NCBI RefSeq assembly: GCF_003053725.1
Contig: NZ_QAYC01000005.1
Location: 124,001-188,000, forward strand
DNA length: 64,000 bases
From: Rhodovulum kholense
Lineage (GTDB): Bacteria > Pseudomonadota > Alphaproteobacteria > Rhodobacterales > Rhodobacteraceae
Reading direction: 5' to 3'
Shown here: piece by piece, positions 49,223 through 53,455 of the stretch
How positions within the stretch are numbered: position 1 is the stretch's first letter
Layout of the letters: each line of letters opens with the position of its first letter
Notes under the pieces: model-generated
What the model was told of the DNA's origin: nothing
The model's input: the letters and a program-made list of their open reading frames with translations, nothing else
The model's database searches: none
Program-made: the position numbers and the translations under genes

Positions 49223-50188
49223 TCAGGCATCGCCCCCCATCAGCTCGGCCGCGATCTGCTCGACGATGGGGCGGGCCTCGGCCGGGGTCATGCCCGGGCG
49301 CAGGCGCCGGTCGTAAAGCATCTTCAGCAGCAATTCGTCATGGGGCGTCAGCAGCGCGAATTCCTCGTCGTCGTTGAAGATCGACGGGCGCACCGAGGGG
49401 TTGTCATTGGCCAGCCCCAGCCCCTGGGACAGTTCCTCATGCAAGCAGGATTGCCGCAGCCGGTCGGGATGTTCGCCGCGGATCACGGCGACGGCGCTGG
49501 AATAGGTGCTGGACTCGCCCTTCGAGAAGGCCAGCACCAGGCAGAAGGTCGATCGCGGCATCACGGCGATCGTGCTTTGGGCGGCGACGTCGATGCCCGG
49601 GATCAGACGTTCGAGCTCGGGACCCAGGCGGCGGCGTTCGTCCTCATTGACGATGAAGACCTGAAAATTGGCCTGTTCGGGGCTGGTCACCCACATCGGC
49701 AGCCCGGTCACCCGCGACAGCCGCCGGACATAGGCCGCGATCTCGGCGCGGTCCTGGCTGCGCTGGGCGGCCGGGATCGTTTCGCCGAAGGTGATGCCAA
49801 AGCGGACGGGCTGTTCCCAGCGCCGGAGCCGGCTTTCGGTTTCGCGCGCCACCAGATGCCCGTCGCGGCTGACATATTCGTCGAACAGCGCGATCCGCAC
49901 GAAATCCTCGACCAGCGCGCGGCGGGTGAAGGGCACATCGGTCTCGCCGCCATCGCTCCGCAGCAGGCCGCGCGACAGAAGATCGGCCTGCACCCGGGCG
50001 TAATGCCGGGCCAGAGCCTGGCTGTCGGGCGAAAGCTGCGGTCGCACCGCTTCGGCGGGGCGGGCGGCGGGCCGTGTCTCGGGCGGCGCGGGTGCCATCT
50101 GACAGCCGGCCAAGGCCACGGCAAGGGCGCTGGCCAGCGCCCCTGGCCGGAGCCCCGGCAGAAAAGAAGGGCGCGATGCGGGCGTCAC
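49223..50188 (-). CDS. DUF2927 lipoprotein
   Basis: 321-residue exported lipoprotein. The signal peptide ends in lipobox ALAGC with Cys at residue 29. The body carries the DUF2927 motif, including QSCLHEELSQGLGLANDNP (His250-Glu-Glu), resembling a zinc-peptidase-like HE site, plus PSIFNDDEEFALLTPHDE. Enzymatic activity is not established for this family. It starts 7 bp after telA and may be cotranscribed with it; SPFH follows after 81 bp. Confidence 0.83.
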   Translation of the reverse strand: MTPASRPSFLPGLRPGALASALAVALAGCQMAPAPPETRPAARPAEAVRPQLSPDSQALARHYARVQADLLSRGLLRSDGGETDVPFTRRALVEDFVRIALFDEYVSRDGHLVARETESRLRRWEQPVRFGITFGETIPAAQRSQDRAEIAAYVRRLSRVTGLPMWVTSPEQANFQVFIVNEDERRRLGPELERLIPGIDVAAQSTIAVMPRSTFCLVLAFSKGESSTYSSAVAVIRGEHPDRLRQSCLHEELSQGLGLANDNPSVRPSIFNDDEEFALLTPHDELLLKMLYDRRLRPGMTPAEARPIVEQIAAELMGGDA

Positions 50189-50195
50189 GATGCGG

Positions 50196-51377
50196 TCACG
50201 CCTCCGGCAGGGCGCCGGCGCCCTGCGCCCGCGATTTGGCGGCGGCGAGCGTGTCGCGCAGCTCTGCCTCCATCTTTTTCAGATCGTCCTCGGCCTGGGC
50301 GCGCCGGGACTTGCCCTCGTCGGCGATGGTCAGGCTTTCCTGGATCGTCGCGATCAGATCGGCATTGGCCTTCTTGACCGCTTCGATGTCGAAGACGCCC
50401 CGTTCCATTTCCTCGCGCACGGTCCTGTTGGCCTGGCGCAGGTTGGCGGCATTGGCGGTCAACAGTTCGTTGGTCAGGTCGCTGGCCTCGCGCACCGCCA
50501 GCGCGGCCTCTTTCGAGCGCTGGATGGTGACCGCCTGCGCCAGCTGGGTTTCCCAAAGCGGCACGGTATTGACCAGGGTCGAGTTGATCTTGCTGACCAG
50601 CGACTTGTCGTTTTCCTGCACCAGCCGGATCGAGGGCAGCGACTGCATCGTCACCTGGCGGGTCAGCTTGAGGTCATGCACCCGGCGTTCAAGATCGTCG
50701 CGCGCGGCGCGCAGGTCGCGCAATTCCTGCGCCCGGATCACCTGATCGGCCTCGGGGGCCGCGGCGACCTCGGCCTCCTTGGCGGGGATCTCGGTCGCGT
50801 CGAGAGCTTTCAGCTTCTCTTCGCCCGCGGCGATGTAAAGCGCGAGCTCGTCGTAGAAATCGAGGGTCTTCTCGTAAAGCTTGTCGAGCGACTTGATGTC
50901 CTTCAGCAGCGTATGTTCATGGGTCAGCAACCGGTCGGTGATCGAGTCGATCTGGCCCTGAACCGTCTCGAATCGCGCAACGAACTTGGCGAAGGGCGCG
51001 GTGCGCCCCATCAGCTTTTCCCACCAGCTCGCCTCGCGCCGCACGTCGAGTTCGGACACCGAAAAGCCCCGGATCGTGGTCACGATCTCGCGGAGCGAGT
51101 CGCCCGCAGGCCCCACGTCCTTGTTGCGCACATCGGCCAGCATGGCCTGGCTGATGGTCTGCAACTCGGCCTGGGCACTGGACCCGAAACCGATGATCGA
51201 ATTGCTGTCGGACATGTCGATCTCGGCCATGCGGGCGCGGATCGCCTCGGCCACCGGCGGCTCGGCCCCTTCCAGCGGGACCAGATCCCGGGCCGGTTCG
51301 GGCAGGACCGCCAATGTCACTTTTTCAACTTCGGCGACGTCCTGCGCCGCCTTCAGGCGATTGTTGTCCGAGCTCAT
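50196..51377 (-). CDS. telA: Toxic anion resistance protein TelA
   Basis: 393-residue soluble helical protein of the TelA/KlaA family, associated with tellurite, nisin and other envelope-stress resistance and with tellurium (Ter) gene sets. Long coiled coils dominate: TLLKDIKSLDKLYEKTLDFYDE and ELRDLRAARDDLERRVHDLKL; the conserved VNTVPLWETQLAQAVTIQRSKEA motif and EEMERGVFDIEAVKKAN are visible. Its ATG overlaps the XpaC gene by 4 bp, the same XpaC-TelA order as in Bacillus xpaC-yceH. Confidence 0.92.
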   Translation of the reverse strand: MSSDNNRLKAAQDVAEVEKVTLAVLPEPARDLVPLEGAEPPVAEAIRARMAEIDMSDSNSIIGFGSSAQAELQTISQAMLADVRNKDVGPAGDSLREIVTTIRGFSVSELDVRREASWWEKLMGRTAPFAKFVARFETVQGQIDSITDRLLTHEHTLLKDIKSLDKLYEKTLDFYDELALYIAAGEEKLKALDATEIPAKEAEVAAAPEADQVIRAQELRDLRAARDDLERRVHDLKLTRQVTMQSLPSIRLVQENDKSLVSKINSTLVNTVPLWETQLAQAVTIQRSKEAALAVREASDLTNELLTANAANLRQANRTVREEMERGVFDIEAVKKANADLIATIQESLTIADEGKSRRAQAEDDLKKMEAELRDTLAAAKSRAQGAGALPEA

Positions 51378-52291
51378 GCATTCTCTCCCGAAATGGGCGC
51401 GACGGGCGCCGGGCGGATGCCTTCCCGTTGCAGCCGGTCGCGCAAGACTTCGATCTCGACGTCAAGATCGGTGCGGTCGTCCTGAATCAGCGCCCGGGTG
51501 CGGGCAGCGAAATTGTCCTCGAGATCGCCCAGAAGCGCCTCGTAATCCCGGCGTGCCGAGGCATCGCGGGTGCGGGCGTAAAGATCGGCGAACTTGACCG
51601 TCGCGTCGCGCGCGCCCAGCAGATAGACGACCAGATAGCGCCGGGCGGCGGTCAGGTCGCGCGGGTCTTCCTCGACGGTGCGGAACATGTCGCGCACGAC
51701 CGCCTGAAACCGCTCGACCCGCGCGTCGAGCCCGCGGTCGCCGGCGCGCCGGATCGCCTCGGACATGGTCGCCAGATGCTTTTCGGCCTCTTCGATGGCG
51801 CGCGCCACTCGGTCCCGCTGAAAGCTGTCGATGCCTTCCATCCCCTTGTCGCTGAGCGGATCGAGGCCGAAGGCAAAGCTGTGAAGGGCGGTGCCCAAGA
51901 CGGCATAGATCGCCGGGGCCAGCCAGTCGCCGCCACCGATCCCCGCCAGCAAGAGCCCCGCGCCTGTCAGGACCGAGCCCAGGATCTTGCGCGGCAGCGC
52001 CGGGCGGCGGGCCACCTTGCGGGCGGCCCAAGCATCCTCGGCCCGCAGCCCCTCGCGGGTCAGCCAGGCGGCAAGGATCAGCACGCCGAAGGCGCCAAGC
52101 GTCAGCGCCAGCCCCGCCGGGTCGGAAAAGAAGGCGCGCGGCAAAAGCGGCAGGGGCGCGAAGAACATCGCATTGGCCCGGCCCGCGGCCCGTGCCGGAC
52201 GCCGCCCCTGGAACGGATGGCGGGGGGGCGCGACCGTCTCGGGGCCGGGCGTGCCGGGGCTGTAGCGGTCGCCGAACCGGTTGGCCATCAC
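51374..52291 (-). CDS. xpaC: XpaC family membrane protein (5-bromo-4-chloroindolyl phosphate hydrolysis)
   Basis: 305-residue inner-membrane protein. A basic, unstructured N-terminus is followed by hydrophobic helices (about residues 55-76, LALTLGAFGVLILAAWL; 105-135, KILGSVLTGAGLLLAGIGGG and the next), then a soluble helical C-domain with EAEKHLATMSEAIRRAGDRGLDARVERF and CID-like repeats. Named for phosphatase-linked phenotypes in Bacillus, with TelA as its regular partner. The GTG at 52291 or the ATG at 52288 may be used; the latter overlaps the 27-residue peptide's stop (TGATG). Confidence 0.88.
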   Translation of the reverse strand: MMANRFGDRYSPGTPGPETVAPPRHPFQGRRPARAAGRANAMFFAPLPLLPRAFFSDPAGLALTLGAFGVLILAAWLTREGLRAEDAWAARKVARRPALPRKILGSVLTGAGLLLAGIGGGDWLAPAIYAVLGTALHSFAFGLDPLSDKGMEGIDSFQRDRVARAIEEAEKHLATMSEAIRRAGDRGLDARVERFQAVVRDMFRTVEEDPRDLTAARRYLVVYLLGARDATVKFADLYARTRDASARRDYEALLGDLEDNFAARTRALIQDDRTDLDVEIEVLRDRLQREGIRPAPVAPISGENA

Positions 52292-52371
52292 GCGCCCCCC
52301 ATGACGGCCACGTAAAGGACCAGCGCGATCAGCAGGAAGAATGACAGTTTCTGCAACCCGGTGCCCGACAT
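52288..52371 (-). CDS. 27-residue single-span membrane peptide
   Basis: A short frame that begins MSGTGLQKLSFFLLI and ends VAVMGGA, with TGA overlapping the xpaC ATG in TGATG. About 18 residues are strongly hydrophobic (LSFFLLIALVLYVAVM), preceded by a single Lys: a one-pass peptide with its N-terminus likely inside. AGAGGGG lies upstream of its ATG on the minus strand, a good ribosome binding site. It is cotranslated with XpaC and TelA. No family recognised; it is too short for automated calling, so similar peptides may be missed in relatives. Confidence 0.6.
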   Translation of the reverse strand: MSGTGLQKLSFFLLIALVLYVAVMGGA

Positions 52372-52453
52372 GATCCCCTCTGTCTTCACGATCTTCCCTT
52401 ATACATGGGATGCGACGCGGCCGTTAAAAGCAAGTGTCGGCGGGTTTTGCCGA

Positions 52454-53455
52454 TCAGCCGGGCGGAGCCTTGCCGCGCCGCCGCATCGGCCGCGCGGCGC
52501 CCGTGCCTCCGGTGCCGCGGGGCGGTTTGCGGCCCGGGGGCGGGTCCGAGATGTCTTCCTGGTCGCGTCCGCCCGTCCGGCGCGCAGGTTTGACGCCGGG
52601 CGGCTTTTGGCCGGTTACCCTGGCGCCGCCGGGCTTCGATCCGGGCGCTTTGGGACCTGCGGGTTTCCCGCTGCCCGATCGGGGACGCAGGGTCTTCGCA
52701 CGGCCGGTTGCCTCGCCCTCGGGGCTTTCGAGCCCCAGCTGATCGCGCAACACGCGGCCGCGGATCTCCTCGACCTCGCCCGCCTTCAAAGCGCCAAGCT
52801 GGAACGGGCCATAGCTGATCCGGATCAGCCGGTTCACGGTCAGCCCGATGGCCTCCATGGCGCGGCGGATCTCGCGGTTGCGGCCTTCGCGCAGGCCGAC
52901 GGTCAGCCAGGCATTGGCGCCTTGTTGACGATCAAGCGTGACCTCCATCGGCCGGAAGCTTTCGCCCGCGATGACAATGCCCTCGCGCAGGGGGGCGAGC
53001 GTGGCGTCCTCGGGCGTGCCCTTGACCCGGACGCGGTACTTGCGCAGCCAGCCGGTCGAGGGCAGTTCCAGCCGCCGCTTGATCGCGCCGTCATTGGTCA
53101 GAAGCAGCAGGCCCTCGGAATTGAGGTCGAGCCGTCCGACCGACATGACCCGGGGCATGTCCTCGGGCAGCTTGTCGAAGACGGTCTCGCGGTCCTTCTC
53201 GTCCTTGGCGGTGGTCACGAGCCCCGCGGGTTTGTGATAGAGCCAGAGCCGCGGCCGGTCGGCCGCCGCCAGCGGGGCGCCGTCGACGGCGATCCGGTCG
53301 GCGGCGGTCACGTTCAGCGCGGGGCTTGATATCCGGCGGCCGTTCACCGTCACCCGCCCGGCGGCGATCATCCGCTCGGCCTCGCGCCGCGACGCGAGCC
53401 CTGCGCGCGCCAGGATCTTGGCGATCCGCTCGCCCTCTTGTCCGGTCTTGTCCAT
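52454..53455 (-). CDS. rluB: Pseudouridine synthase RluB/RsuA family
   Basis: 333-residue rRNA-modifying enzyme. N-terminal S4 RNA-binding domain (RIAKILARAGLASRREAERMI), catalytic motif VGRLDLNSEGLLLLTNDG with the Asp nucleophile, KYRVRVKG and GRNREIRRAMEAIGL. About 75 residues at the C-terminus form a Lys/Pro/Gly-rich tail (APGSKPGGARVTG, RKPPRGTGGTGAARP) typical of alphaproteobacterial members. Divergent from tadA over a 75-bp gap. Confidence 0.92.
   Translation of the reverse strand: MDKTGQEGERIAKILARAGLASRREAERMIAAGRVTVNGRRISSPALNVTAADRIAVDGAPLAAADRPRLWLYHKPAGLVTTAKDEKDRETVFDKLPEDMPRVMSVGRLDLNSEGLLLLTNDGAIKRRLELPSTGWLRKYRVRVKGTPEDATLAPLREGIVIAGESFRPMEVTLDRQQGANAWLTVGLREGRNREIRRAMEAIGLTVNRLIRISYGPFQLGALKAGEVEEIRGRVLRDQLGLESPEGEATGRAKTLRPRSGSGKPAGPKAPGSKPGGARVTGQKPPGVKPARRTGGRDQEDISDPPPGRKPPRGTGGTGAARPMRRRGKAPPG

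Follow-up and report, generated by a model that had tools for sequence, protein, structure and literature searches.

The DNA analysed here (the window) is a 64,000-nucleotide stretch of the Rhodovulum kholense genome (contig NZ_QAYC01000005.1, positions 124,001 to 188,000), and it raises the question of what is encoded by a 28-codon open reading frame (ORF) that lies immediately before an xpaC gene. The frame had been predicted from its letters to specify a small membrane peptide, and we consider here whether it is a real gene, how closely it is tied to xpaC, and what its product might do. The reading that we favour, with a probability of roughly 0.6 and by analogy with known systems, is that it encodes a small membrane protein, translationally coupled to xpaC, that serves as a subunit of an XpaC/TelA complex for envelope stress and acts in a mode like that of TorE/NapE; the partner role we infer.

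Organization of the xpaC-telA region

All of the genes in this region are on the minus strand. A pseudouridine synthase gene (52454-53455) is the upstream neighbour, and is followed by the small ORF (52288..52371), xpaC (51374..52288; PF10112 Halogen_Hydrol, E 2e-27), telA (50196..51377; PF05816, E 6e-107), which shares four bases with the end of xpaC, and a gene for a putative lipoprotein of the DUF2927 type (49223..50188; PF11150, E 5e-63), which is 7 bases from telA and is probably the fourth gene of an operon. A set of named loci, the best 80 of 475 confirmed and therefore leaning toward close relatives, has telA downstream of xpaC in 80/80, the DUF2927 gene in 77/80, and the pseudouridine synthase gene upstream in 62/80; the closest relative among these best 80 is Rhodovulum visakhapatnamense, whose XpaC is 96% identical.

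Just before the peptide is a promoter-like element, CTTGCTTTT-N-CGCATCCCAT (52405..52434, minus strand), and the pattern CTTGCWTTT-N10-13-CGCATCCCAT is found once per genome in 14 of the genus's 16 genomes and is missing from the remaining two; a related promoter-like pattern occurs once in the R. kholense genome. The element presumably resembles a heat-shock sigma-32 type site. A term search of the main text of two R. sphaeroides RpoH sigma-factor papers gave no mention of telA or xpaC, and we thus treat the sigma-32-like appearance as a lead. No site was found before the peptide in a sigma-70 scan, and the folding of the leader RNA is unremarkable (z -0.48). A weak terminator-like hairpin directly follows the pseudouridine synthase gene (52437..52453, minus strand), and is no real evidence for a terminator; two such hairpins were found in the region versus 2.4 expected in shuffles. 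Because a promoter-like element conserved in the genus stands ahead of it, the peptide is probably the head of an operon that continues with xpaC, telA and the DUF2927 gene. The original prediction placed the peptide and xpaC in the same transcript, and this is strongly suggested by the synteny, the overlap, and the conserved promoter-like element; the single transcript itself we infer.

The small open reading frame

Read on the minus strand from 52371 to 52288, the frame translates to MSGTGLQKLSFFLLIALVLYVAVMGGA* (27 residues plus a stop, making 28 codons); the plus-strand frame of 52288-52371 is a different reading, and the original prediction, whose coordinates are correct, had left the strand out. 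Its other particulars also agree with the sequence. A ribosome-binding site, AGAGGGG, is at 52375..52381 (minus strand), ahead of the peptide ATG at 52371-52369; the peptide contains a single Lys (K8); and at 52290-52286 the letters TGATG comprise the peptide stop and the xpaC ATG, with one shared base. An alternative in-frame GTG start (52387..52389, minus strand) would give a 33-residue form and is absent in one relative (L003). The aligned start column of 75 distinct 27-residue sequences contains Met in 59, Val in 13 and Leu in 3, and the ATG is thus favoured over the GTG at 52389. In a plasmid collection two records matched, and the sole full-length relative there is without annotation; gene-prediction length cut-offs of 30, 38 and 60 amino acids are named in PMC11796252.

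Association of the peptide with xpaC across the family

A 22-row profile of the peptide was searched against 198 genomes of the Rhodobacteraceae and matched 169 of them at E<=1, with PF10112 being present in 174 of the 198. At E<=0.01 there are 138 matches in 138 distinct genomes, and all 138 are directly upstream of xpaC (121 by paired tables and 17 on DNA). This level was reached in 137 of the 174 PF10112-positive genomes versus one of the 24 PF10112-negative genomes, and in that exception (G158) XpaC is truncated by the end of a contig. Among the 150 peptide matches listed, 125 are on the same strand as the listed XpaC domain and 291-464 nt upstream of it; 18 places from the remaining 25 were examined on DNA, with XpaC directly downstream in 18/18, and the last seven (three in XpaC-negative genomes and four second matches) all have E>0.01 and were not placed before xpaC. 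The R. kholense genome has one profile match.

These placements bear on the possibility that the product is an independent stress peptide, which would act on another membrane target such as a transporter or a sensor kinase, co-regulation being its sole reason for sharing the operon. There are many small membrane proteins whose known targets are encoded at other places in the genome, and the link to XpaC, as read from gene order, would be indirect. However, the location of all 138 matches at E<=0.01 directly before xpaC argues against this explanation, and we regard it as quite unlikely.

XpaC loci were surveyed separately, using the best 150 places by PF10112 (174 genomes matched), one per genus and with that of the window included; these represent 150 different genomes, and the upstream DNA was read for each. 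The XpaC start was set by its N-terminal motif, which was recognisable in 143 of the 150, and the seven loci in which this failed were read on their own. An ORF was scored if it was hydrophobic, had at least 20 codons, and ended within -30 to +10 nt of the XpaC start. Such an ORF precedes XpaC in 143/143 of the motif-anchored loci and in six of the seven motif-less ones, for a total of 149/150; the remaining locus, in G233, has a PF10112 match and no such ORF. It is also found in 79/79 of the named loci with a readable XpaC start (among the best 80 of 475, L294 is without one), including L310 from a relative of Ruegeria pomeroyi. Within the genus the 27-codon frame and its overlap are kept in 16/16 genomes, that of R. 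kholense and 15 others. The original prediction had named a loss of frame, overlap or hydrophobicity upstream of xpaC in relatives as a result that would count against it, and on the best 150 loci it came through this check very strongly; the observation is confirmed, and more firmly than the prediction had put it. As is typical of an operon-encoded accessory protein, this is a short ORF with a membrane helix (by hydropathy) conserved beside the genes of its presumed partner.

One-helix and two-helix forms

Classed by a rule based on hydropathy, the 143 motif-anchored loci divide into 114 with a single helix and 29 with two, the latter being about a fifth of genera; among the 79 named loci the two-helix form is present in 8. 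The extra helix sits in front, often with a start like MxRLILxxLL, and the xpaC-proximal helix is the part common to both forms. On a tree of 102 XpaC rows (30 loci and 72 of the 80 named loci, leaving out L235, L236, L237, L240, L241, L244, the partial L266, and L294), the two-helix state undergoes five changes, at least three of which are forced by well-supported branches. One locus (L276:2816-3001, plus strand) encodes a whole canonical 27-residue peptide, its own Met included, to which a further helix is joined in frame at the N-terminus.

Across the class, PF10112 is present in 17 of 289 sampled genomes, 4 of these 17 being in the Rhodobacteraceae. In other alphaproteobacterial families an adjacent hydrophobic ORF was found at 3 of 20 loci from 13 genomes (L211, L216 and L226), and the presence of these ORFs before an xpaC-like gene is a thin indication (3/20) that this gene order might predate the family.

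Overlap with xpaC and selection on the frame

At the junction with xpaC, the ORF ends within -5 to +4 nt of the xpaC start in 139 of the 143 motif-anchored loci, and in 72 of the 143 the stop/start overlap has precisely the geometry seen in the window. A GGGGGG stretch (52295..52300, minus strand) lies in conserved Gly-Gly codons and doubles as the xpaC ribosome-binding site. The Gly-Gly pair is present toward the C-terminus in 100 of the 143 loci; in 93 of these 100 a distance of 6-12 nt separates it from the xpaC start, and its first codon is GGG or GGA in 87, relative to a background of 33% (usage within XpaC). Because of this double role the conservation of the glycines is not readable as protein function alone, and what preserves the terminal Gly-Gly may be the xpaC ribosome site and not the protein. 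Since the ribosome site lies inside the ORF and the stop either overlaps the start of xpaC or adjoins it, ribosomes ending the peptide are positioned to start xpaC.

The original prediction had pointed to synonymous-biased codon conservation as support, and this is borne out by a pN/pS of 0.36 in the frame among the 16 genomes of the genus, as compared to values of 1.02 and 2.59 for the two remaining forward frames. On the reverse strand the three values are 0.81, 0.54 and 2.75, of which the lowish 0.54 counts against this. A set of 45 sequences gives 0.43 in frame. Over codons 2-22, which are outside the xpaC ribosome site, pN/pS is 0.31 (0.18-0.47; 16 genomes) and 0.38 (0.29-0.51), and protein-level selection is thus acting on the frame, as for an accessory protein encoded in an operon. 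Residue conservation was assessed in the 75 distinct 27-residue sequences, all having the +1 overlap only; L14 (74/75) and G25 (73/75) are nearly fixed, L17 (68/75) and V21 (66/75) are strongly conserved, and G5-L6-Q7-K8 stand before the helix. Conservation along the helix has a period of 95-100 degrees, a signal of a conserved face that is weak because 196 of 5000 shuffles gave an equal or higher value. We regard it as near certain that the ORF is a protein gene, and from its sequence features its product is a genuine small protein with a single predicted membrane pass.

The selection data also bear on a second alternative, that this is a translated leader ORF, whose translation would serve solely to open the start of xpaC by way of ribosomes passing through the overlap, with the peptide product being discarded. 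The position of the stop close to the xpaC start and the inclusion of the xpaC ribosome site within the ORF are both as this explanation would have them. However, the sequence of a leader or attenuator should be free to vary apart from its control codons, whereas here there is purifying selection on the amino acids outside the ribosome site, a helix that is hydrophobic throughout the loci counted, four nearly fixed or strongly conserved residues, and in some lineages an added second helix that would be pointless for a leader. We consider a discarded product to be distinctly unlikely, and slightly less so the independent peptide discussed above.

A third explanation, that frameshifting at the overlap makes the peptide an extra N-terminal helix of XpaC, could draw on the TGATG-type overlap in half of the loci. 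It is rejected as very improbable, since the relative frame is not conserved (the stop position modulo 3 relative to the xpaC start is 1 in 93, 2 in 28 and 0 in 22 of the 143 loci), and XpaC has its own conserved N-terminus. Lastly, it is scarcely credible that the frame is open by chance or that its product is a hydrophobic peptide of the type I toxin kind. Short hydrophobic ORFs do arise in both ways, but the ORF test applied to the window itself is satisfied at 13 of 1621 ATGs (and at 2 of the 98 ATGs that come first in an ORF of at least 200 amino acids) versus 149 of the best 150 loci, and a chance frame is refuted by these counts. The adjacency to xpaC in those 149 argues against a toxin, and the fixed synteny, the single profile match in the genome, and the lack of a Pfam, PADLOC or PHROG match to the window peptide tell against either origin.

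Relationships to known families and systems

The window peptide matches no Pfam family and no NCBIfam family at E<=1, which is a weak negative with so short a query as 27 residues, and it has no match among the PHROG or PADLOC models. Another member of the family gave only a non-significant Pfam match (OppC_N, E 0.43). Assignment to a described family is therefore rejected, and the peptide is, as judged from its sequence, a putative new small-protein family of a known kind. KdpF, CydX and AcrZ are single helices of roughly 30-50 amino acids on larger membrane complexes, some of them encoded in the same operon as their partners; they are similar as tiny single-helix subunits and differ in that their partners are not XpaC/TelA. 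A literature search of titles and abstract openings, with most subscription papers outside its scope, found no published small protein tied to xpaC, and no account of the working mode of XpaC/TelA.

The closest functional parallel is probably with TorE/NapE. TorE is described in PMC6134056 as a 56-residue protein that binds its operon partner TorC, strengthens its anchoring, and builds a larger complex. Both it and the peptide are small, hydrophobic, membrane-spanning proteins encoded within the operon of a membrane system; TorE, however, is the longer and serves a respiratory cytochrome (PMC6134056), whereas the 27-residue peptide precedes xpaC/telA and has no Pfam match at E<=1. Membership of the TorE/NapE sequence family is unsupported, there being no Pfam or NCBIfam match at E<=1 (again a weak negative with a short query), and we would take TorE as the best working analogue.

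A connection of xpaC and telA to envelope stress is suggested by their Gram-positive relatives. The CesSR paper on L. lactis contains a transcriptome table that lists an XpaC-like gene at 10.3x and telA1 at 3.4x (PMC3139573), the LiaFSR-LiaX paper on E. faecium gives 7x for xpaC in mutant MUT_132 (PMC10269926), and disruption of the TelA-like lmo1967 of Listeria is cited in PMC12791056 as raising nisin sensitivity 4-fold. The protein kinds are the same, and the genes are listed or described as neighbours in Lactococcus and Listeria (PMC3139573, PMC12791056), but the row in the Rhodobacteraceae differs in having the peptide in front and the DUF2927 gene behind.

Features of XpaC, TelA and DUF2927

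At its start (52256-52288, minus strand) XpaC carries a motif of the MAQRFGGKYSP kind, which is strongly conserved and leads into a variable linker. The structural model of XpaC is of low quality (pLDDT 73, pTM 0.45); four N-terminal helices in it may be read as membrane helices, followed by a helical bundle, and a fold search with it gave nothing at E<=0.001. Sequence searches of the PDB with XpaC, TelA and DUF2927 gave non-significant matches only. Among the PHROG models, TelA has a match to one with the name tellurite resistance (E 1.7e-51), and there are weak PADLOC matches of XpaC to ZorA (E 0.042) and of TelA to JetC (E 0.015). The telA gene of R. sphaeroides was reportedly the subject of work by O'Gara and colleagues in 1997.

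For DUF2927 (49223-50188, minus strand) the AlphaFold2 model is good (pLDDT 88.9, pTM 0.82), and its best PDB matches are the catalytic domains of matrix metalloproteinases, the best with an E of 6e-4 and a TM-score of 0.63 by target and only 0.33 by query. The sequence HEExxQGLGLxND is conserved in DUF2927 and occupies the place of the metzincin motif, HExxHxxGxxH; from this and the model, DUF2927 may be a degenerate or unusual metzincin.

A proposed role for the peptide

If the peptide is a small subunit of an XpaC/TelA complex, we envisage that the peptide, xpaC, telA and DUF2927 genes would be expressed as one transcript with the peptide first, and that ribosomes finishing the peptide would start xpaC through the overlapping or abutting stop and start. 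The helix would insert with its N-terminus in and its C-terminus out, with K8 on the N-terminal side, and would pack against the membrane helices of XpaC, as these appear in its weak model, in a fixed ratio. There it may stabilise or tune a membrane complex of XpaC and TelA with a protective role for the envelope during stress. The suggestion in the original prediction that the peptide could assist XpaC/TelA is compatible with these observations, and the peptide is a candidate partner of the two proteins.

A more elaborate version, which we offer tentatively and think somewhat unlikely, is that the peptide is an obligate subunit of an undescribed four-part envelope-stress machine, consisting of the small helix, the membrane XpaC, a cytoplasmic TelA, and a periplasmic metzincin-like DUF2927 lipoprotein. 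Its components would be held in a fixed ratio by one coupled message, it would be near-universal in XpaC-bearing Rhodobacteraceae, and the second helix would be a module that has been repeatedly gained or lost.

Both XpaC and TelA are associated with the ability to tolerate tellurite and membrane-active peptides, and a strictly linked 27-residue partner would provide a compact genetic handle on their working mode. The peptide also illustrates how a protein found throughout a family can slip below the length cut-offs of gene prediction.
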